This document shows positions 17,867 to 28,775 of a stretch of DNA of 53,081 nt, piece after piece; the stretch's first letter is position 1; every line of letters begins with the position of its first letter. The stretch is from Allomuricauda sp. (GTDB lineage Bacteria > Bacteroidota > Bacteroidia > Flavobacteriales > Flavobacteriaceae). Location: contig NZ_PABT01000031.1 in NCBI RefSeq assembly GCF_002699205.1, forward strand, positions 1 to 53,081, given 5' to 3'. The position numbers were made by a program, and so were the translations under genes. The notes beneath the pieces were generated by a model. That model saw only the letters and a program-made list of their open reading frames with translations. It was not told the DNA's origin and did no database searches.

Positions 17867-18730
17867 ATGAAATCATTGGTCAATAACATCACCGTCTTAA
17901 ACCAACAAATCTACTTTGAAAATCTAAAACGATTGGAATCCAAACCATACAAATCATTTTTTAAAAAAGACATGTACTTAAATAATGAAATAATAAAGCA
18001 TGTCCAATCCGGGGAATTACCTTTTGACAAAATAACCCATCCCAATCCAGATGATTTTAACGAAATGCTAAAGGGAAATTTGTGGAAAACAACGGGATAT
18101 AGTGTGTTAGAAAATGGGACATTATATAGTGCAAGCCATACAAAATTCCCCAATTGCACTGCCGAAATGTTTGAATGGTGGTTTTGGTGGCATTCTGTGG
18201 AGTCTGAACGCTATGCCTTATGGTATCCGTACTGTCACGTAAGTATTGAGGCAAAAAACAAAGAAGTGCTTGAAGACTCAAAACTTGATCATAGAGAAAA
18301 GTACATTGGTAATACTCATATTATAACCGAATACTTAAATGACGCTAAAAATGATATTGAAATAAAATTTGTTCCACCCGAAGCATTTGGATTTGAAAAA
18401 GAAGTTCTTGAAAATGCGGGCATAACAGCAAGTGCATGCGGATATGTTTATTCTCAGAAACCCAAAGCAAAAATTTGTGAGATGATCCACTTATTCAAAG
18501 AAACCAAAGAAGGCGGAGAACTGATTAGCAGATATTACGTTGGCGAAAATATGGCTGCATTAGTTGGAAGCAAAGAAATTAAATTACCTGAATTTCTGAA
18601 GAAAAAATTATTAAACAGCAATGCTTCTGGAATACAAATGGCGTACGAACAAGTAATGCATGACCAAATTGAGTTTACACATTTGGCCTCAATGCTTCCT
18701 GAATTATTCAAGGAATTTGGAAAGAAGTAA
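17867..18730 (+). CDS. 2,4-diacetylphloroglucinol hydrolase (PhlG)-like enzyme
   Basis: Two hundred and eighty-seven residues. The segment FEWWFWWHSVESERYALWYP followed by His124 is characteristic of the DAPG hydrolase family, a zinc enzyme that cleaves a carbon-carbon bond of diacetylphloroglucinol. Candidate zinc ligands, by family position, are His124, Glu155 (HIITEYL), His265 and Glu269 (HDQIEF near the C-terminus). No signal peptide, so cytoplasmic. Most family members outside pseudomonads have unknown substrates, so detoxification of an acylphenol is a guess. It follows the ohr operon on the same strand after 159 bases. Confidence 0.72.
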   Translation: MKSLVNNITVLNQQIYFENLKRLESKPYKSFFKKDMYLNNEIIKHVQSGELPFDKITHPNPDDFNEMLKGNLWKTTGYSVLENGTLYSASHTKFPNCTAEMFEWWFWWHSVESERYALWYPYCHVSIEAKNKEVLEDSKLDHREKYIGNTHIITEYLNDAKNDIEIKFVPPEAFGFEKEVLENAGITASACGYVYSQKPKAKICEMIHLFKETKEGGELISRYYVGENMAALVGSKEIKLPEFLKKKLLNSNASGIQMAYEQVMHDQIEFTHLASMLPELFKEFGKK

Positions 18731-18782: not shown

Positions 18783-19121
18783 TTAGGCAATATTTTCTTT
18801 TTGCCTTAAACCACCTTTTAAAGAACGCATCATACGATTATCAACACCTGAAGGATGTACGGAGTTTACACGGGTCTTTCTCGGGGCCGCTTCCAATGCA
18901 GCAGTACGTGTCAGCCCTATGATAGCGTGTTTACTGGTGACATAAGCCGATACATTGGGTATACCTCTAAGCCCGGCAACTGATGATGTATTGATGATAC
19001 TTCCCCCATCGTTCATCTGTGGGAGAACGTATTTTAACCCTAACCAAGTCCCCTTCACATTTACGGCAATCACCTTGTCAGATTCTTCTTCCGAAAATTC
19101 TTCAATGGAGGAGCGTTCCAA
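18783..19121 (-). pseudogene. Short-chain dehydrogenase/reductase remnant
   Basis: About 112 residues cover the middle of an SDR: VIAVNVKGTWLGLKYVLPQM (central Asn), SIINTSSVAGLRG (catalytic Ser), SAYVTSKHAIIGLTR (Tyr-x3-Lys) and RVNSVHPSGVD. The N-terminal TGxxxGIG nucleotide-binding part is missing and the homology breaks at about 19105-19125, where unrelated sequence begins. The C-terminal helix is also cut. Likely a decayed gene. Confidence 0.7.
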
Positions 19122-19370: not shown

Positions 19371-19410
19371 GAAATCATAGATTTTTTATGGCTCTTGGAA
19401 TTGATGGATG
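19371..19410 (+). promoter_or_regulatory. Shared upstream element, copy 1
   Basis: AAATCATAGATTTTTTATGG followed by CTCTTGGAATTGATGGATG resembles the element found upstream of four other genes of this locus (see 25375 and 26379). It lies 60-100 bases before the 19471 gene. Confidence 0.35.
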
Positions 19411-19470
19411 CCCAAGCTTTTAGCTATATCTACTTTTAGATCAATTAATAATCCATAAAAACTATAAAAA

Positions 19471-20016
19471 ATGAAGAGAACAATTATTTTTTGTGCAATC
19501 GCTTTTTTGGCATGCACAATAGACGTAGATGCGCAAAACTGTAATCAAGGTAAAAAATTGGCCGAAAAAACATGGGAAAAGTGGGGTCCATGGAAACCTA
19601 ACATTACTTTGATTCCTTTTAAAAATGAAGTTAAGAAAATAAAAGGATATTGGAATTGGATTGCTAATAATGGAGGAGCGACCATCGGCCCACGATTTTT
19701 GGAAGTTGATGGAGGCAATGAGAACGGAAATATTGCCGGACAGACAAAACGGACTTTTGTAACTCCGCCGTCCTTTAACAATACCATGACCATTACCATA
19801 AACAAATATGGTGGAAGGGCCGAAACTGGTGTCGTAATCTGTTCCCATGGTAGGAATGGGGTAACTAGACAGCTCAAGAGCTACACATTCCCAAACAGTA
19901 GAAATGGGTCGGTCAAAAAGTTTACCCTTTCAGGAGTGAAAGGAAAAATCATAAGTGTTGCCATGAAGAATAGATCTATTGGGAACAAATTCAAGTATAA
20001 GATTAACGCTAAGTAG
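19471..20016 (+). CDS. Secreted protein with one copy of an unrecognised beta-rich domain
   Basis: One hundred and eighty-one residues with an N-terminal signal peptide (MKRTIIFCAIAFLACTIDVD, cleavage probably after DAQ). The C-terminal half, MTITINKYGGRAETG... LKSYTFPNSRNGSVKKFTLS then GVKGKIISVAMKNRSIGNKF, aligns with the first half of the 26628-27401 protein (MTLNVEKTGGRAKTT... GNITGKRIVLRVKNHSATNK). The alternating pattern suggests a beta-sandwich. I know no family for it. The last residues carry no sorting signal I can see. A convergent terminator separates it from the sensor kinase gene. Confidence 0.7.
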   Translation: MKRTIIFCAIAFLACTIDVDAQNCNQGKKLAEKTWEKWGPWKPNITLIPFKNEVKKIKGYWNWIANNGGATIGPRFLEVDGGNENGNIAGQTKRTFVTPPSFNNTMTITINKYGGRAETGVVICSHGRNGVTRQLKSYTFPNSRNGSVKKFTLSGVKGKIISVAMKNRSIGNKFKYKINAK

Positions 20017-20176
20017 TTGGTCCATACAAATGGTGAGGGGCCACTTAAAAAGTTCAATAAGAGACGACAGTACAAGTATTTGGAAAAAGGCGCCCATTCT
20101 TTATGCCCACTCAAAAAGGGCCTACTTACAGGGCAAAATGCCTTATTGACAGATCATTAAAAACCAAAAAGATAAG

Positions 20177-20203
20177 AAGCCTCTAATTTTAGGGGCTTTT
20201 TAT
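20177..20203. terminator. Terminator between converging genes
   Basis: AAGCCTCTAA (20177-20186) pairs with TTAGGGGCTT (20189-20198, one G-T pair), followed by TTTTAT on the plus strand. It lies between the 19471 gene and the end of the minus-strand kinase gene and may serve both. Confidence 0.55.
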
Positions 20204-20237
20204 GTATCAGTTTGTTTATAGCACTACCGGTTTTTGA

Positions 20238-22235
20238 TCAAGAGGTAAAATTAATGTTGATCGTTGTTCCTAACCCTTTTTCAGAATCCCAATCTATTTC
20301 GCCGTTGAGGTAGGCCACCCGGCTCTCAATATTTTTTAGCCCCAGTCCTTTTTTGTCCTTTATTTTTTCTGGGTCAAAACCTTTGCCATCGTCTTCAATG
20401 GTCAAGTGAACTTGGTCGTTATGGGCATACAACTGAATGAAAATGGAGCTTGCCTCGGCATGCTTTTTAATGTTCGATACAATTTCCTGTACCAAGCGAT
20501 AGACCATTACCTGTTTGGTGGAATCCATTTTGGGAAGGTCGTTGATCTCAAGGGATACTTCATAGCCACTTATTGTCAATCTTTCCGCAATGTCCTTTAT
20601 GCCATCTTCCAGGCCTGAAATGGATAGGGCATGGGGCATCATATTGTGCGAGATCCGCCTAACCTCCGTACATGCATGGTCAATTAAGGATTGTGTCTTT
20701 TCCACAATTTCCACATTGGCATTGGTTCCATCTACCATTGCCGTAAAATGGGATTTTACCGAGCTCAACAAACTTCCAAGCCCGTCATGCAGGTCCTTGG
20801 CTATCCGGGTACGCTCTTTCTCCTGTCCCTCTATCATGCTGTTCATGGCGGTAAGTCTGTTTTCTTGTTGCAGTTTTACAATTTCTTGGTCTTTTAAAGC
20901 TTGTTGTTGTTCCGCAATGGTATTTTGGTATTTGAGTCTTTTTCTAAAGAAAATATAAAATAGCATCAAAAACGCGGCTAAGGTGATGGCCCCCGCCGTC
21001 ATCAGGTTTTTCTGCCTATTTTTTTTCTCAATGATAAGTTGTTGCTCAGCATCTTTTTTATCAAATTCGTACTGCATGCCCAACTGGGTCATTTTTCTCA
21101 CATTTTTTTCACTGAAAATAGAATCTTTTAGTTGTGTGAATTTTTCATGGTTCTCCAAAGAAGCTTTGTAATTACCTAAACTGTTTTCAACTTTGTACAG
21201 ACATTCATAGGCCTGTATTTTGGTATCAATGTCATTTATTGATTTTGCCAGTTCCAAGGCGGTGCTGCAATCTTTTAAGGCATCTTCTACCTTGCCTTGT
21301 TCATAATACAATGCCCCCCTTTTGCTCAGTACCATCATTATTCCCCTGTCGTAATGGTTTTCTTCACTGGTCTTAAGGGCTTCGTTATAAAAATCCATGG
21401 CTTGTTGTGTACTGTCCATTTCATAATATGCATTGCCAATGTTGAGGTTTGAAGTGCTGATAAACCTTGGGGGCAGTCCAGCATCGATTTTCATTTGCTT
21501 GGCCTGTTTTGATATTTCCAGCGACTTTTGGTATTGCCTCATTTTTGTGAGCAGTTCACCTTTGTTGCTTAAAATAATGGCAGCGTTTGGCTGATTATTT
21601 ATAGCAATGGCCAGGTCATAGGCCTCTTCATAACTTTTAAGGGCACTGTTGTAATCGTCGGTTTTAAGGTAAAGGTTGGCCAAACTGTTGTCGAGTACCA
21701 TTATTTTGCCTTTTAACTGTATCAATCCTAGGGAATCAAGGTCTTGGGTATCAATCCCCTCCAAGATTCCTTTGGCCCTTAAGTTTGTGGTTATGGCCAG
21801 GATTACGTCTCCCAGTCTACTATATATACCTCCACGGGTACTCAATATGGAAGCTTTGAGCATTTCATCGTCCTGTCCCCTTAAATTTTCATCCGCAAGG
21901 TCAAGTGCCACTAAACTCGAATCCATTTCTGCATGGAAGAAATAATAGTTCCCCAAAGAATAATAGCTGTTGGCCATTAGCAGAGGGTTTCCATCAGATT
22001 TTGAAATTTCCAGTGCTTTGAGGATTATTTTTTTTGAGGGTGAAATGTAGCGTTCCTTGCCAGCCAATTTTACCAGATTTAAGACCTTATTGTAGTTGCT
22101 CTGTTCACTGTTTACAATTGAATCCAATTGATTTTCGATTGGGCTTTGCCCAAAGAGATTGTTTCCCGGTAATGTGCCAAAACAAAGAATGCAAAATAGG
22201 ATCAGGCTTTTAAGCATAGGGTTATAGTGGTACAT
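20238..22235 (-). CDS. TPR-containing sensor histidine kinase (HisKA_3/NarX type)
   Basis: Six hundred and sixty-five residues: signal peptide (about 1-30, FGQ), a periplasmic array of tetratricopeptide repeats (about 40-370; for example SNLNIGNAYYEMDSTQQAMD and YEQGKVEDALKDCSTALELA), a membrane segment near 408-430, a coiled coil (about 430-470), the HisKA_3 box RIAKDLHDGLGSLLSSVKSH with His483, and HATPase_c with DDGKGFDPEK and KKGLGLKNIESRV. This architecture is common in Bacteroidota and pairs with LuxR/NarL regulators; the obvious partner is the regulator at 23759. The TPRs probably bind a periplasmic peptide or protein. It is transcribed away from the secreted-protein genes. Confidence 0.88.
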   Translation of the reverse strand: MYHYNPMLKSLILFCILCFGTLPGNNLFGQSPIENQLDSIVNSEQSNYNKVLNLVKLAGKERYISPSKKIILKALEISKSDGNPLLMANSYYSLGNYYFFHAEMDSSLVALDLADENLRGQDDEMLKASILSTRGGIYSRLGDVILAITTNLRAKGILEGIDTQDLDSLGLIQLKGKIMVLDNSLANLYLKTDDYNSALKSYEEAYDLAIAINNQPNAAIILSNKGELLTKMRQYQKSLEISKQAKQMKIDAGLPPRFISTSNLNIGNAYYEMDSTQQAMDFYNEALKTSEENHYDRGIMMVLSKRGALYYEQGKVEDALKDCSTALELAKSINDIDTKIQAYECLYKVENSLGNYKASLENHEKFTQLKDSIFSEKNVRKMTQLGMQYEFDKKDAEQQLIIEKKNRQKNLMTAGAITLAAFLMLFYIFFRKRLKYQNTIAEQQQALKDQEIVKLQQENRLTAMNSMIEGQEKERTRIAKDLHDGLGSLLSSVKSHFTAMVDGTNANVEIVEKTQSLIDHACTEVRRISHNMMPHALSISGLEDGIKDIAERLTISGYEVSLEINDLPKMDSTKQVMVYRLVQEIVSNIKKHAEASSIFIQLYAHNDQVHLTIEDDGKGFDPEKIKDKKGLGLKNIESRVAYLNGEIDWDSEKGLGTTININFTS

Positions 22236-22329
22236 AATTGAAAGGATGGTATGGTTTTTTGTTGAAATGAAATTTAATTATAAACTACAAACTAGAAGTT
22301 AAGAATTCGATGACTTCTAAAAAATCTAT

Positions 22330-22345
22330 GATTTCATGGATTTTT
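22330..22345 (+). promoter_or_regulatory. Shared upstream element, copy 2 (short form)
   Basis: GATTTCATGGATTTTT is identical to the first 16 bases of the copies at 25375 and 26379. It lies about 100 bases before the 22443 gene and 95 bases from the kinase start on the other strand. Confidence 0.4.
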
Positions 22346-22442
22346 ATAAGCTATAGGAAATGATGGATAGGCAAGATGGGGGAATGGAATAATTTGCGGT
22401 ATGCCACATTCAATATGGGCACTATCTAAAAAATCAACCAAC

Positions 22443-22796
22443 ATGGAGATTACGGTCCAATACCAACAGGAAATAAAACAGGTAATGGCAAACTTGGCCA
22501 TGACATTTCCAAAACATATGGTAAAACACCCCTTATTAAATAAAAAAGTAATCAATGTTATTGATTGTCCGAATATGGTGATCCTGACCCAAAAAGATGA
22601 TAAGATCAAGATCAGTAGTGGGGTCAATATTGTGGTGCCATGGATTTTCATTGTCCTCATGCTGCTCTTTGGGACGGGTATCATAGTCGGTCTTATGTTT
22701 TACGCCATCTTAATCTTTACAAATCGTAAAGAAACAAAAGTGCTCAAATATGGAACAATAATAAGCTGTTCATCAGATACATATAACATAATTTAA
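22443..22796 (+). CDS. Small membrane protein of unknown family
   Basis: One hundred and seventeen residues from the ATG at 22443; an earlier in-frame ATG at 22401 would add 14 residues of less protein-like sequence. After a soluble N-terminal part (MEITVQYQQEIKQVMANLAM, DKIKISSGVNIVV) there is one long or two short membrane segments (about 68-95, WIFIVLMLLFGTGIIVGLMF). No family recognised. It starts the plus-strand group that contains the paralogous lipoproteins. Confidence 0.55.
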   Translation: MEITVQYQQEIKQVMANLAMTFPKHMVKHPLLNKKVINVIDCPNMVILTQKDDKIKISSGVNIVVPWIFIVLMLLFGTGIIVGLMFYAILIFTNRKETKVLKYGTIISCSSDTYNII

Positions 22797-22820
22797 TATA
22801 ACCAATCAACTATTTAAAAA

Positions 22821-23516
22821 ATGAGATATTATTCTGTTTTTCGATTAATGATGCTATCAATGCTGTTTTTTTCATGTGCCTCTGAAAACCAACAAAAAGG
22901 GTTGGGTTTGGTTTCAGACCTCTATGGAGCCAAAACATCGTATACCAAGGGCTTTAAGATAAATAATGGAAAAAAAGCAACCATTTTTACAGTAAAGGTG
23001 GGGCAGAGCAAAGCATTGGACACCTTACCTTGGCCAACAGCTTCGTCAAATATTGCCCTGATGATATATGAGAATTTTTCAGATGAAGAGCGTGAGAACT
23101 TTACCAATATTGCTGTTGAGAAAGATGAGAAAGAAGAAGATAGGAGAGAAACACAATATTTTGAGCTTGGCAGGCTCGCCGATGCCATGGAACAAGCAAA
23201 TGTCTTTAAAAAGTTCTCGGATTATTTGATGAAAGAAAATTATGAGGCCATTGTTGACGACGTGGATTCGAGATATAAAAATGCACAGACACTTCCAAAT
23301 CTTAAGGCATATATGAATGGGCTTATCGCCAAACATGGAAAGATTACCGGCTATAATCGCATGGAGTACGGGATTCTTACCCCCAACAGCGGAGGGGATA
23401 AACTATTCAAATATTTAGGGTATTTAAAGTTTTCTGATCAGTCAATATGGCCTTACAGTGTAACCGCTTCAATGGATTTATCGAACAAAGACATACTCGG
23501 CTATAGGCTCGATTGA
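22821..23516 (+). CDS. Lipoprotein, paralogue family member A
   Basis: Two hundred and thirty-one residues. The signal ends in a lipobox (SMLFFSC, Cys19). Conserved blocks shared with the 24640 protein: DLYGAKTSYTKGFKINNGKK, SSNIALMIYENFSDE, RYKNAQTLPNLKAYMNGLI, MEYGILTPNSGG and YLGYLKFSDQS. The family is unknown to me; the fold appears alpha/beta with a charged middle. Upstream sits ACCAATCAA (22802), also found before the 24640 and 26628 genes. A hairpin with T-run (23572-23605) follows it. Confidence 0.72.
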   Translation: MRYYSVFRLMMLSMLFFSCASENQQKGLGLVSDLYGAKTSYTKGFKINNGKKATIFTVKVGQSKALDTLPWPTASSNIALMIYENFSDEERENFTNIAVEKDEKEEDRRETQYFELGRLADAMEQANVFKKFSDYLMKENYEAIVDDVDSRYKNAQTLPNLKAYMNGLIAKHGKITGYNRMEYGILTPNSGGDKLFKYLGYLKFSDQSIWPYSVTASMDLSNKDILGYRLD

Positions 23517-23571
23517 TCTAGGGGGGCTAAACATCATATTAAGATGGGACTGTTTTTGTGATGGAATTTTA

Positions 23572-23605
23572 TGGGGGTTAACTTATTTGGCCCCCAGATT
23601 TTTTA
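23572..23605 (+). terminator. Probable terminator after lipoprotein A
   Basis: TGGGGG (23572-23577) and CCCCCA (23591-23596) form a short stem, followed by GATTTTTTAATT. It lies between lipoprotein A and the regulator gene. Confidence 0.45.
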
Positions 23606-23732
23606 ATTCACATTCGATAAAACAAGCATTTTAGCCAAAAACATAAGCAGCCTATACATTTTTGGATACCAATCACTGGATTTCAGTTACAGTTAAACTG
23701 TATTTTACCTATTTTTATTTAGTTCAAACTAT

Positions 23733-23754
23733 ATACCAACCAGATACCAACCAG
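23733..23754 (+). repeat. Tandem 11-bp repeat in the regulator leader
   Basis: ATACCAACCAG occurs twice head to tail (23733-23743, 23744-23754), ending four bases before the regulator ATG. One helical turn per copy suits protein binding, and the position would also affect translation. Confidence 0.55.
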
Positions 23755-23758
23755 TGTA

Positions 23759-24412
23759 ATGTCACCAATTAAAGTGTATATTCTCGATGACCACCAAATG
23801 GTCATTGAAGGCTTTAGACTTCTTTTACAGAACGAGAAAAACATACAGGTCGTGGGATGGTCCCTCAATGCCGAAGATGCGCTGAAGGAGTTACCCAACA
23901 TAGATACCGATGTGGTGCTGTTGGATATAAACATGCCCGGAATGAACGGGATAAATGCCTGTAAAAAAATAACCAAACTATTGCCTTGTGTAAGGGTGAT
24001 TGCCATTACCATGCACAAAGAGAGCAGTTTGATCAAAATGATGCTGGGAAATGGGGCCAGTGGTTACGTTTTGAAGAATGCCGGGAAGGACGAGTTGGTA
24101 AAAGCCATTGAAACCGTTTACGAGGGCAAGACGTTTTTAGACGAGACGGCCAATGAAATTGTCATAAGTACCATGGCCAATGGTAAAAAAAGTAAAGGTA
24201 CCAGTGGGCTTTTTCCAAAATTGTCGCGGAGGGAAAAGGATGTCCTAAAACTTATTCTCGAAGAATATACCACCCAAGAAATAGCCGATAAACTGTTTAT
24301 CAGTTTTGGTACCGTGGAAACCCACCGCCGCAATATGCTCATTAAAACCGGAACTAGGAATACTGCTGGCCTGGTCCGTGTGGCTTTGGAGTACGGACTG
24401 TACGACCAATAG
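23759..24412 (+). CDS. LuxR/NarL-family response regulator
   Basis: Two hundred and seventeen residues: receiver domain with acidic DD at residues 10-11, phosphoacceptor Asp56 (VVLLDINMPGMNG), Thr in AITMHKE and Lys in YVLKNAG; then a LuxR-type helix-turn-helix (about 150-212; LSRREKDVLKLILEEYTTQE and ISFGTVETHRRNML). The natural partner is the TPR kinase at 20238-22235, separated by two genes of the opposite direction. It sits between two duplicated lipoprotein genes, so control of this locus is a fair inference. The ATG at 23759 follows the tandem repeat directly. Confidence 0.9.
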   Translation: MSPIKVYILDDHQMVIEGFRLLLQNEKNIQVVGWSLNAEDALKELPNIDTDVVLLDINMPGMNGINACKKITKLLPCVRVIAITMHKESSLIKMMLGNGASGYVLKNAGKDELVKAIETVYEGKTFLDETANEIVISTMANGKKSKGTSGLFPKLSRREKDVLKLILEEYTTQEIADKLFISFGTVETHRRNMLIKTGTRNTAGLVRVALEYGLYDQ

Positions 24413-24430
24413 TATTTTTTCTTTCTATAT

Positions 24431-24450
24431 GAATTCATGTATTTTTTTGG
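24431..24450 (+). promoter_or_regulatory. Shared upstream element, copy 3 (diverged)
   Basis: GAATTCATGTATTTTTTTGG resembles GATTTCATGGATTTTTTTT of the better copies. It lies about 190 bases before the 24640 gene. Match is partial, so confidence is low. Confidence 0.3.
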
Positions 24451-24639
24451 TATAGCTGAAAAAATGGATGTTTTTCGTTCCATTAAAAATTAGTTTAGAA
24501 CACCAAAATGGCTTACTGCCGTTTACTTAGGGGTGTTTTATACCATGGTATCCCTTACCTTATTTTTTGAACGTAATTGGCCTTGATATGGTTTTATGAC
24601 CAATCAATACCAACAAATAATAGTTAATATATCTTTAAA

Positions 24640-25317
24640 ATGAAAAAACAATCCTTTTTGAATAAAATCCTTGCCTCGTCCATAACTGAAAGCCAACAAA
24701 GGGGTTTGGATGCCGTTGCCGAACTTTACGGTACAAAAACATCCTTTACCAAAGGGTTCAAAGTTAGCAATGGAAGAAAAGCGATCATCTTCACTGTTAA
24801 GGTGGGGCCCAGTCAAATGTTGGATTCTTTGGCATGGCCAACGGTTTCATCAAATATCGCCCTAATGGTTTATGAGAATTTTTCCTTTGAGGACAGGAAA
24901 ACCTATACCACCATTGCCGTTGAAAAGCTTGTTGACAACAAAGTTAAAGAGAAACCACTGTATTTTGGTCTCAACAGTCTTGCCAATGCCATGGATCAGG
25001 CAAGGATCTTCACCGATTTTTCAGAACATTTGATCCGTGGGGAATATGTGGCCATTGTTGAAAATGTGAATCCAAAGTATAAAAATGCACAAACGCTTCC
25101 GAACCTTACCGGCTATATGGAAAAGCTGATACGTGAACACGGTAAGATCATGGGGTACAAACGAACAGAATATGGAATACTTACCCTGAAAAATGGGGAC
25201 AAATTGTACAAATATATTGGGTATTTAAAGTTTGCGGACCAGTCTGTACAACGGTACAGTGTCACCACATCCATGGATATTACGAACAATGTTTTCGAAG
25301 GTTTTAAATTGAACTGA
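24640..25317 (+). CDS. Paralogue family member B, without an export signal
   Basis: Two hundred and twenty-five residues, clearly a duplicate of the 22821 lipoprotein: AELYGTKTSFTKGFKVSNGR, VSSNIALMVYENFS, YKNAQTLPNLTGYMEKLIRE, TEYGILTLKNGDKLYKY and YIGYLKFADQS. In contrast to that protein the first 20 residues (MKKQSFLNKILASSITESQQ) lack a hydrophobic core and lipobox, so it should stay in the cytoplasm or the signal has been lost. The leader carries ACCAATCAATACCAAC (24600-24615), similar to the tandem repeat before the regulator. Confidence 0.72.
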   Translation: MKKQSFLNKILASSITESQQRGLDAVAELYGTKTSFTKGFKVSNGRKAIIFTVKVGPSQMLDSLAWPTVSSNIALMVYENFSFEDRKTYTTIAVEKLVDNKVKEKPLYFGLNSLANAMDQARIFTDFSEHLIRGEYVAIVENVNPKYKNAQTLPNLTGYMEKLIREHGKIMGYKRTEYGILTLKNGDKLYKYIGYLKFADQSVQRYSVTTSMDITNNVFEGFKLN

Positions 25318-25374
25318 TCTATCCTACATTTTGGAACACGGGTCGACGCACCGCAGCTATTTTAAAGCCTACAG

Positions 25375-25413
25375 GATTTCATGGATTTTTTTTTGCTCAG
25401 GGAATTCTTTGAT
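25375..25413 (+). promoter_or_regulatory. Shared upstream element, copy 4
   Basis: GATTTCATGGATTTTTTTTT followed by GCTCAGGGAATTCTTTGAT. Apart from one extra T and one substitution it equals the copy at 26379, although the genes downstream are unrelated. It lies 69 bases before the 25482 gene. Confidence 0.55.
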
Positions 25414-25481
25414 GAATTTTTTTAATCAATTGATATTTTGGACAGGCTTATTAAAAACAATACAAATTTAAGTTGTAGGGA

Positions 25482-26222
25482 ATGATGAAAAAATCTGTAA
25501 GGCGCAAAATTGTAAGGATAACATTGGTCTGTTTTGTCACGTTGGTCGTTGTCAGTTTTTTTTCGAAGAAAAAAGACGATAGGGCAGAACAAAGGGTATT
25601 CTCGACATTGGAAAATCATTTTGGAACCAAAGTGGACTTTTCAAAGGGCTCATACCCCGAAATAATGGAAGAGGACAAAAAATTCATTGGCATCGATTTA
25701 AAAGGAGGGGAGATAATCAATACGGTTGCCGAACATAAATTGGCAACTGCAGCGGCAGTATATCTACAAACCCAATTGGCCAGTAGGGAAATTGATGAAT
25801 ATGACAAAATAGGGGTAAAAGTGTATAAAAAAGATTCAGATACTTCTGAATCGTTTCAGGGCACCTATGGGGTTGATCTGCTCAAAGATTTGGCGCATAA
25901 GTCCATCAATTTTCACAAAGCGGTGTCCGCCCTAGAATATAAAGGGGCCACAGGATTGTACGAACTGCTAAAACCGGAATTTCAAAACGAGAAGGAGAAA
26001 AATGTGTTCGTCTCCAAGATTGATAAGGCCATAGCTGACAGAGGCGGTATAGACAGCATAAAACTTGTGGCAATAGACCGTATACAGGTTGAAAAAACAA
26101 AAAAAAGGTACTTGAATTTTGAGGGAATCATTTATTTGAAAGACCAGACCACGGCACAATTGCTTGTGCAAACATATTATGAACCTTTCAAGGAAGGTAT
26201 TGTCTACATAAAAGTAAACTGA
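25482..26222 (+). CDS. Membrane-anchored protein, distant paralogue C
   Basis: Two hundred and forty-six residues with one N-terminal membrane anchor (about 9-27, IVRITLVCFVTLVVVSFFS). The soluble part follows the plan of the 22821/24640 family: LENHFGTKVDFSKG against AELYGTKTSFTKG, then AAAVYLQTQLASREIDEYDK against NIALMVYENFSFEDRKTY, and near the end GIIYLKDQTTAQLLVQTYYE against IGYLKFADQSVQRYSVTTSM. Identity is low, so shared ancestry is inferred from order and spacing. No known family. Confidence 0.65.
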   Translation: MMKKSVRRKIVRITLVCFVTLVVVSFFSKKKDDRAEQRVFSTLENHFGTKVDFSKGSYPEIMEEDKKFIGIDLKGGEIINTVAEHKLATAAAVYLQTQLASREIDEYDKIGVKVYKKDSDTSESFQGTYGVDLLKDLAHKSINFHKAVSALEYKGATGLYELLKPEFQNEKEKNVFVSKIDKAIADRGGIDSIKLVAIDRIQVEKTKKRYLNFEGIIYLKDQTTAQLLVQTYYEPFKEGIVYIKVN

Positions 26223-26627
26223 TGATTCAAGACACCTGAATGTCCTGCCCATAGAGATTGGAACCTTTGGATTTTGACTGGAAAAGGGAGTGGGCAACGT
26301 TGCTTTATCCCTAGTGATACCACATTCTTTTTTGGTGTTGATTATGGCACCAAAACCCTTTTGTTTGAATTCCTCAATGATTTCATGGATTTTTTTTGCT
26401 AAGGGAATTCTTTGATATCATTTTCAGTAAGGTGCAATACTTTGCATTTAGATAAACGGATGGTATAAATAAACTCAAATTTTGGAACATGTACAGCTGC
26501 CCTATGGCCAGATATATGGCATTTGCCGACTTGTAGAGCAAATGATCATAGGTTGGTTCCATTACCAAAAGTTTATAAAAACCAATCAATTGTAAAGACG
26601 AAATAATAACTTAAAAAAAACAAGAAA
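26223..26627. other. Long leader region before the 26628 gene
   Basis: No gene seen in 405 bases. It contains an imperfect hairpin TTTTGGTG...CACCAAAA (26330-26355), copy 5 of the shared element (26379-26416), and ACCAATCAA (26580) close to the next start codon. Probably promoter and leader. Confidence 0.45.
26379..26416 (+). promoter_or_regulatory. Shared upstream element, copy 5
   Basis: GATTTCATGGATTTTTTTT followed by GCTAAGGGAATTCTTTGAT, almost identical to copy 4 one kilobase upstream. It lies about 210 bases before the 26628 gene. Confidence 0.55.
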
Positions 26628-27401
26628 ATGAAAAAAATGAGATTGCTTTTAGTATGTTTAATGGTATTAGGTACAAGTGCTGAACTATTGGCCCAAATAG
26701 GTATTTCCAGTGCTACTATGTCGGGTGCTATTAGGCCCAAAATAGAGTGCGAGCATATATGGGATTGGCATGATAAACGAATTGTTGGCAACAATACAAA
26801 GGATTTTGCTATGTGGAATGGTGGTGAGTCTACTTACTCATCAATGACCCTTAATGTGGAAAAGACAGGTGGGAGAGCGAAAACTACATTTACCCTTTTG
26901 GTCGATGGTCAGGTTGATGAATCTTGGACTTGGGAAAATGGCCCTGGAAGTGGTTACAGTAAAACAATAAACTTGGGCAATATTACTGGTAAGCGAATTG
27001 TTTTAAGAGTGAAAAATCATTCTGCCACCAATAAAATTGAGTTTAGAACTCGAAAAACAGGTATGTCGAACTCTATGTTCTTTAATAAGGGTTCCAACGA
27101 GACGATTACCAGAACAATTGAAAGTCGTGATGGTGAATCAAGGTGGACAATAACGCCCCCTACCTGTACTTCAAAAGGGAGTATTGAAGTACGTAGATTG
27201 AATGGAACATCCAGTGCTGAACTGGTGGTGTACAGGAATGGTAATGTATTTAAAACGGAGTCTTTTCCGTCCAATAAGAGCCATACCATCATAACGTTGG
27301 ACAATATTGGAAGTAGGAGGACCTCTTCTTTGGAATTCGTGATTAGAAATATAGAAACCCAAAAGTTTTTAAAATTTAGGGTAGGTGCGTGGTATAACTA
27401 A
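26628..27401 (+). CDS. Secreted protein with two copies of an unrecognised beta-rich domain
   Basis: Two hundred and fifty-seven residues with a signal peptide (MKKMRLLLVCLMVLGTSAEL, cleavage near LLAQ). The first repeat, MTLNVEKTGGRAKTTFTLLV ... INLGNITGKRIVLRVKNHSA, matches the C-terminal domain of the 19471 protein. A second similar unit follows: GSIEVRRLNGTSSAELVVYR ... ITLDNIGSRRTSSLEFVIRN. Each unit is about 80 residues with alternating hydrophobic positions, suggesting a beta-sandwich. There is no known family I can name. It is followed 42 bases later by the beta-helix gene, likely co-transcribed. Confidence 0.7.
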   Translation: MKKMRLLLVCLMVLGTSAELLAQIGISSATMSGAIRPKIECEHIWDWHDKRIVGNNTKDFAMWNGGESTYSSMTLNVEKTGGRAKTTFTLLVDGQVDESWTWENGPGSGYSKTINLGNITGKRIVLRVKNHSATNKIEFRTRKTGMSNSMFFNKGSNETITRTIESRDGESRWTITPPTCTSKGSIEVRRLNGTSSAELVVYRNGNVFKTESFPSNKSHTIITLDNIGSRRTSSLEFVIRNIETQKFLKFRVGAWYN

Positions 27402-27443
27402 TATTGGTTAAGGCAGAAATTAGACAACAATCAAAACCATAAA

Positions 27444-28775
27444 ATGAAAAATATAGTTCAACTATCAATTTTTGTTTTGATAGCCATTGCAAACGCCCAA
27501 AACACTTCACCCAATTTTGCCAATGAGGGGCGTGATTGGTACATCAGTAAAAACACGGGTTCGGGACAAATGGGCACCAAAGAACGCCCTGCAAAGGATA
27601 TCGGCAATATAATCCATCATCTAAAACCGAACGATAGAATACACATAGCAGAAGGGGTGTATATGAGCAAAGGCTCAAGGGGCGCGGATGAAATCAATGT
27701 TCCCGTAAAGATTTATGGCGGGTACGATACTAGTTTTACCACAAGGGATCCATGGGATGCACACAAAACCATTTTTACCGGCACCAATGAGTACATGAAA
27801 TCAACAGATGCCAGAATCTACATCCGCACGGACCAGCAGCGGGAAAGCAATGGGCAAAAATCCACAGGCTCTGAAATTGTTGTGGATGGGATTATTGTTG
27901 ACAATGGTTCAAGAAACCGCTATCATGAGGACAAGAATTTGGCTATCCGTAGAACGGCGAGCCCAAAATCAAAACAAAACCCGTCACCGGAATCTGGGGG
28001 CATCGTTATTGTAGCCAGCAATTTCACCAATGTAACGGTGCAAAATTGTGTGGTGATGAACACAGCACCCACCGAAGGGGCCATTTCAGTAAGAGTTTTT
28101 CAAGGCGGCAAGGGGCTTATCCAAAACAATTTCTGTATCAATAACACAGGGTATGGCATTCAGGCCCGTACAGGATATGTTGGGAGCGACCCAAGTAAAA
28201 TACCTGTTTTTACCATTCGTAACAATACGGTACTTTTTACCTGGAAGCACGATGCCATTGCCTCTTATGGTGGAGATGCCCTGGCCTTCGACAAAGATTT
28301 GGTGGCCACCGTGGCGAACAATGCCCTTGGATATGGCCATATGGGGGGTATATACAGTAAAGGGGCCAAATTGACATTGACGAACAACCTCTTTACGGGC
28401 AATGGCAAATACGATTACAGGGAGATCAACGATAAAATGGCCGTGGCCGATATTTTGGACGAAGCAATGTATTTAGATCCCAACAGTGATGGTAACCAAG
28501 GTTTTTTGATCAAGATTCCCGTAGCGGAACGTTGGGCAGAAATCTATGCCAATCGTAAAGAAATCAGTAGGGCGGAAGTTGATGCCGCTGTGACGGTACC
28601 CAATACTGGGGCAAACCAGTTGCGAAGTATTTTCGGTCTGAATGTACAAGGGACCGACGTTGCGATGGATGCCGAGATTTTCCTTCCGTTGATTACGGTT
28701 GATGAAGCATTGCCGGCCGGATTGCACCCATGGAACGGTATGGGCTGCAGTATTCCCAAACAGGCAAGCAATTAG
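27444..28775 (+). CDS. Secreted right-handed beta-helix protein
   Basis: Four hundred and forty-three residues with a short signal peptide (MKNIVQLSIFVLIAIANA, then QN). The start of the mature part, RDWYISKNTGSGQMGTKERP and KDIGNIIHHLKPNDRIHIAE, is the usual N-cap of parallel beta-helix (pectate-lyase-like) proteins, followed by coils such as GIVIVASNFTNVTVQNCVVM, LIQNNFCINNTGYGI, FTIRNNTVLFTWKHDA and LTLTNNLFTGNG. Such proteins bind or cleave polysaccharides. I see no lyase catalytic pattern I can trust, so binding or structural use is equally possible. A terminator follows at 28803. Confidence 0.78.
   Translation: MKNIVQLSIFVLIAIANAQNTSPNFANEGRDWYISKNTGSGQMGTKERPAKDIGNIIHHLKPNDRIHIAEGVYMSKGSRGADEINVPVKIYGGYDTSFTTRDPWDAHKTIFTGTNEYMKSTDARIYIRTDQQRESNGQKSTGSEIVVDGIIVDNGSRNRYHEDKNLAIRRTASPKSKQNPSPESGGIVIVASNFTNVTVQNCVVMNTAPTEGAISVRVFQGGKGLIQNNFCINNTGYGIQARTGYVGSDPSKIPVFTIRNNTVLFTWKHDAIASYGGDALAFDKDLVATVANNALGYGHMGGIYSKGAKLTLTNNLFTGNGKYDYREINDKMAVADILDEAMYLDPNSDGNQGFLIKIPVAERWAEIYANRKEISRAEVDAAVTVPNTGANQLRSIFGLNVQGTDVAMDAEIFLPLITVDEALPAGLHPWNGMGCSIPKQASN

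Follow-up and report, generated by a model that had tools for sequence, protein, structure and literature searches.

Gene content of the locus and its shared DNA element

The 53,081-nucleotide stretch analysed here (the window; the whole of contig NZ_PABT01000031.1 of assembly GCF_002699205.1, Allomuricauda sp., Flavobacteriaceae) contains, within a genome of 4.47 Mb, a locus of nine open reading frames (ORFs) at 19471-28775, encoding a sensor kinase, a response regulator and members of the protein families C2, C3, C4 and beta-helix, interspersed with copies of a DNA element that looks like a promoter. The original prediction, made from the sequence of the window, had described a secreted-protein locus run by this kinase (20238-22235) and regulator (23759-24412); all nine ORFs lie where it had put them, and the common element that it had seen before five genes is indeed present, with a sixth copy on the minus strand to be added. 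The features are as follows.

19371..19438, + strand: element copy (two half-sites and TAnnTT box) before C2a
19471..20016, + strand: C2a, 181 amino acids, predicted secreted, modelled as N-terminal helices and one beta-sandwich domain
20238..22235, - strand: TPR sensor histidine kinase (HisKA_3, HATPase_c, H483)
22268..22335, - strand: element copy facing the kinase gene, palindrome in common with the 22330 copy
22330..22397, + strand: element copy before C3 and the lipoprotein, degenerate second half-site
22401..22796, + strand: C3, small protein with a single hydrophobic segment
22821..23516, + strand: C4 lipoprotein with a lipobox-like cysteine
23759..24412, + strand: LuxR-type response regulator (receiver, GerE, D56)
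24431..24498, + strand: element copy before the second C4 paralog, one core mismatch, degenerate second half-site
24640..25317, + strand: C4 paralog lacking signal peptide and lipobox
25375..25442, + strand: element copy before the third C4 relative
25482..26222, + strand: distant C4 relative (profile match), N-terminal hydrophobic segment
26379..26446, + strand: element copy before C2b and the beta-helix gene
26628..27401, + strand: C2b, predicted secreted, related to C2a, probably with two such domains
27444..28775, + strand: beta-helix protein, predicted secreted, 70-84% conserved in 27 named loci

Pfam and NCBIfam name three of the nine genes, namely the TPR sensor kinase, the LuxR-type response regulator and, by Pfam only, the beta-helix protein. 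The kinase carries Pfam TPR, HisKA_3 (36.7 bits) and HATPase_c (52.3 bits) domains and has the expected phospho-accepting histidine at H483, and its TPR domain lies between hydrophobic segments at 6-29 and 410-431, the second of which precedes the kinase core. The regulator combines Response_reg (89.5 bits) and GerE (57.1 bits) with the expected phospho-accepting aspartate at D56.

The five forward copies of the element begin at 19371, 22330, 24431, 25375 and 26379, and the regulator gene lacks a copy; one element count accepted a single mismatch at most and was limited to matches that lie outside genes or at the shared palindrome. Exact matches to GATTTCATGGATTTTT occur three times in the genome and exact copies of GAWWTCATRGATTTTT five times, all at the locus. 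When 59 genomes were searched for exact GAWWTCATRGATTTTT, all 12 copies in the four locus-positive genomes fell within the locus, and the 55 genomes lacking the lipoprotein or beta-helix held 13 copies in total. The second half-site follows 10 of the 12 locus copies and the TAnnTT box all 12; among the 13 non-locus copies, these numbers are 2 and 1. Several similar copies inside 7 kb could also be taken for the non-regulatory repeat of a mobile element, such as a miniature inverted-repeat transposable element or an insertion sequence remnant, but we regard this as extremely improbable, given the fixed offset of the box, the orientation of the copies towards genes, their presence in 25 loci of one regulator type and the fact that the four locus-positive genomes contain no exact copies beyond the locus.

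Distribution of the element and of the genes

Across the loci collected, a composite element, defined as the core with at most three mismatches together with the second half-site and the box, was present in all 25 loci with a regulator ortholog (at least 58% identity) and in none of the 18 without one, the expectation by chance being 0.05 in 695 kb of shuffles; the element thus goes with the regulator and not with the beta-helix gene. While 11 of the 25 regulator-positive loci had helped to define the pattern, the 14 loci anchored on C2 had no part in it and form an independent test, in which 13 copies with at most one mismatch were found in 11 of the 14 loci, compared with 0.2 in shuffled sequence and none when the pattern was reversed. 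Among the element-negative loci, 8 of 18 have a different kinase or regulator beside the beta-helix gene. At the Crocinitomix loci L070-L073, the beta-helix gene follows a protein of 512-531 residues that weakly resembles both kinase and regulator; the regulator seems to have been swapped there. Loci L041, L043, L044 and L045 are those of L054, L057, L053 and L052 and were not counted again, and L162 and L171, which duplicate L056 and L074, were excluded from the element, composite, dyad and C2-anchored-locus counts.

In the element, two dyads are spaced by 27 base pairs (bp), and a -7-like box follows 32-33 bp from the start of the second half-site. In 46 composite copies the offsets of the second half and the box were (27, 60) in 35, (26, 59) in 6 and (27, 59) in 5, values that are partly fixed by the selection filter itself; the unfiltered offsets come from the 13 copies in the new loci, where the second half-site starts at +27 in 12 copies and at +26 in the remaining one, and TAnnTT stands at +60 (11 copies) or +59 (2 copies). 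A dyad scan of 40 of the 46 copies over 75 centres located the most self-complementary centres at +2.5 and +29.5. With the box taken at -12 to -5, as described for Flavobacterium psychrophilum (PMC9723704), the dyads would be centred near -42 and -69.

Of the 25 box copies from beta-helix-anchored loci, 14 read TAnnTTG(C/T), and of the 21 others, 15 read TAnnTTAG; because the box differs between the locus groups, a special sigma factor may take part too. The first form is close to the SM5 motif TAnnTTGY, which has been assigned to a probable alternative sigma factor in F. psychrophilum (PMC9723704), and a group of ECF-like, FecR and TonB-type genes lies near 12 of the 14 C2-anchored loci. The element might hence mark the targets of an alternative sigma factor or of some other activator, with the kinase and regulator merely one more pair in its regulon. 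We consider this unlikely, as the element tracks the regulator ortholog and is missing from the beta-helix loci that have another regulator (8/18), and as a dimeric activator would account well for two dyads placed at a constant distance upstream of the box. The description of SM5 promoters considered here does not include a tandem-dyad element, and the C2-anchored loci, unlike SM5 promoters, have TAnnTTAG.

The genes, too, travel together. They stand side by side in five congeners, and of 99 relatives, the 6 with the lipoprotein are precisely the 6 with the beta-helix protein. In a sample of 395 genomes from the order, the beta-helix protein was found in 3, the window genome included, and a named collection yielded 27 loci with 70-84% identity, mostly in Flavobacteriaceae, with members beyond the family in Crocinitomix, a Saprospiraceae metagenome-assembled genome and one genome labelled Chlorobiota; an alignment of 27 sequences including that of the window has a mean column identity of 73%, and no beta-helix match was found in the plasmids searched. 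Among 29 beta-helix-anchored loci, loosely linked kinase- or regulator-like proteins occur in 21, C2 in 16, C3 in 12 and C4 in 12, in the changing company of LRR proteins with T9SS tails, S74/YadA-head proteins and NHL proteins. In the 11 such loci that have the regulator, C2, C4 and C3 are each found in 9.

A C2 profile detected 19 of 397 family genomes and 14 of 237 genera. Regions were fetched for 16 of the 19 C2-positive genomes; the window genome and G020 were already included, and G517 is represented only by its short match loci. After two duplicates were dropped, all 14 of the resulting loci, which contain C2 by selection, also have orthologs of the kinase and regulator as well as a further predicted secreted protein, X; C4 is present in 11 and the beta-helix protein in none. 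FecR-like and TonB-type proteins each occur in 12 of the 14, and argS lies nearby in 10. The TonB-type proteins (L163-L177) carry FecR_C and Plug domains, and the FecR/TonB-type group is a predicted second signalling module beside the two-component system. At four loci, three genes that are absent from the window lie between C2 and the kinase (L052:3207-5261, L053:3247-5257, L055:3790-5790, L056:3836-5824). The last of them is HTTM-like, with PF05090 in the one copy scanned (L053 locus, as L044:5943-6884); two copies of the HTTM-like genes matched no NCBIfam family, and an Sdp-like reading of these genes in L052, L053, L055 and L056 would be conceivable but is not adopted here.

The original prediction had offered itself for refutation should the genes not be co-inherited in relatives, and co-inherited they are. 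Its view of one regulated surface or extracellular system gains from this and from the distribution of the element with regulator type (25/25 and 0/18), while its gene set needs correction, the wider core being C2, kinase, regulator and lipoprotein, with the beta-helix and small membrane proteins confined to a subset.

Protein families predicted to be exported

The relationships that had been proposed among the predicted exported proteins hold up. C2a (19471-20016) and C2b (26628-27401) do have a domain in common, the small membrane protein at 22401-22796 has one hydrophobic segment, and the three proteins taken to be related form family C4: those at 22821-23516 and 24640-25317 are 57% identical, and a family profile built without the one at 25482-26222 still detects it at E 4.5e-17. 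Their N-termini differ, the first having a lipobox-like cysteine, the second having lost both the cysteine and the signal peptide, and the third showing a hydrophobic segment without a cysteine; the second paralog, with signal peptide and lipobox lost, looks cytoplasmic. The beta-helix assignment likewise stands, since PF13229 scores 26.8 bits at a cut-off of 25.9, and the predicted model agrees.

The model of C2a predicts a beta-sandwich that resembles GOLD, SID1-family and collagen-binding PPC domains equally. Identity with bacterial collagen-binding/PPC and eukaryotic GOLD domains is 7-13% in the structure matches, and neither C2a nor C2b has a Pfam PPC (PF04151) match up to E 1, although the predicted C2a fold resembles PPC. 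Searches of C2 against PDB by sequence returned ubiquitin over 31-35 residues, which we attribute to chance, as well as a pullulanase domain at E 0.83; the best C4 match in PDB by sequence reached only E 0.25, and the beta-helix protein had none.

One could suspect an antagonism locus, in which exported C2, or glycine-rich proteins elsewhere, would be antibacterial or anti-eukaryote effectors and C4 lipoproteins would protect the producer. This seems quite improbable to us: the beta-sandwich is a common fold with equally good likeness to three kinds of domain, C2a shows good conservation, most single-domain relatives being 53-72% identical to it, and domain scans of the locus proteins found no catalytic or toxin family. 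A glycan-utilisation locus, with the beta-helix protein as lyase or hydrolase and the C2 proteins as binding modules, appears less far-fetched, though still rather unlikely. The likeness of the window protein to beta-helix glycan enzymes (BT_1002, rhamnogalacturonan lyase, Pel9A) is one of predicted fold, with 12-14% identity, and phage tailspikes have the same fold; no SusCD pair or recognised CAZyme was found among the nine genes, and the beta-helix protein is absent from all 14 C2-anchored loci.

Related exported proteins are encoded at L057:4349-4915, where the element stands upstream, at L060:7452-8183 and at L067:11626-12390. The latter two contain glycine-rich hydrophobic stretches, that of L067 with a weak glycine-zipper match under the cut-off. 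At 17867-18730 (+ strand), directly upstream of the locus in the window, lies a gene whose product has a DAPG hydrolase domain (PF18089, E 2.9e-65); it is followed by an ORF at 18783-19121 (- strand) that, by reading alone, resembles the C-terminal part of a short-chain dehydrogenase and is apparently truncated. No RNA families were found in the window at gathering scores.

A probable FimS/FimR-like regulon and its possible role

We favour, with a probability of roughly 65%, a model in which a FimS/FimR-like two-component system binds the shared element and activates the adjacent exported proteins of predicted beta-sandwich or beta-helix fold. That the regulator binds the element is suggested by their co-segregation, and since the element stands before such genes in all 25 regulator loci, the regulator likely switches these proteins on together. 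The TPR domain of the kinase would face the periplasm and sense a signal there, and dimers of the regulator would occupy both dyads, near -42 and -69, which we take to be the position of class II activators, and thus activate the exported-protein genes through the tandem-dyad promoter, while the divergent element copy would place the kinase in its own regulon. The folds predicted for C2 (a GOLD/PPC-like beta-sandwich) and for the beta-helix protein, whose fold recurs in glycan-acting enzymes, suggest a role outside the cell: an extracellular glycan or matrix, on the cell surface or close to it, would be bound or processed by the products, and the C4 lipoprotein would be their partner in the envelope.

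FimS/FimR of Porphyromonas gingivalis is described as pairing a regulator with a kinase whose many TPRs lie in a domain assigned to the periplasm, and as having surface proteins for targets; the signal of FimS, the best-studied relative, is unknown (PMC11053733). The window kinase has the same layout, with a TPR sensor domain flanked by two hydrophobic segments. Its match to the NCBIfam model of FimS, at 48.3 bits, is far under the cut-off of 600 and leaves it outside that equivalog, and, unlike FimS/FimR, which serves fimbriae, the system described here would target C2, C3, C4 and beta-helix proteins and has a defined operator that can be read from the sequence. The best NCBIfam matches are MctS/MctR (NF052443, NF052445), with 123.5 bits for the kinase core and 176.3 bits for the regulator, both below the equivalog cut-offs of 700 and 300 bits. 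The system of PMC5399024 is of OmpR type and not relevant here.

Distances of C4 (0.86), the beta-helix protein (0.79) and the kinase (0.57) correlate with those of the regulator, which fits co-inheritance. Mean distances are 0.75 for the sensor domains, 0.40 for the kinase cores and 0.29 for the regulators, and the strong divergence of the sensor domains is as if the signal differed between lineages.

Several observations weigh against the proposed regulon. Two of the five forward window copies (22330 and 24431) lack a clean second half-site, and the -7 box mostly differs from the sigma-A consensus. The Fisher p of 1.6e-12 for 25/25 and 0/18 ignores common descent, and 10 of the 18 element-negative loci show no regulator on the available stretch, several of these stretches being short and one having its kinase cut by the contig end. 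The correlation with the regulator is poor for C2 (r 0.19) and good for argS (0.76), so that shared descent accounts for much of the co-divergence, and partial correlations given the regulator (sensor-C4 0.24, kinase core-C4 0.28, sensor-C2 0.19, sensor-X 0.06) gave no sign that the sensor in particular co-evolves with C4, C2 or X. Pfam and NCBIfam searches give no function for C2, C3 or C4, and the beta-helix model has no Foldseek match at E <= 0.001. A pairing of the sensor with the lipoprotein or C2 was dropped, the kinase core scoring 0.28 with C4 and the sensor 0.24.

As the C2 genes lie downstream of the element and close to the kinase, one may also speculate on an autoinduction circuit, in which secreted C2 would be the ligand of the periplasmic TPR sensor and the C4 lipoprotein its co-receptor, in a self-reinforcing social switch of Flavobacteriaceae that would govern surface and extracellular proteins. 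We think of this as a long shot.

In kind the locus is ordinary, a probable two-component regulon; its parts are new, and the sequence defines it unusually well. Literature searches for such a system showed no description of it. Since 25 loci combine this operator with the regulator and the gene set, the likely targets of the system may be read from the DNA, whereby several exported families without a Pfam name would gain a regulatory context, and the defined promoter could be used on a reporter for finding the signal.
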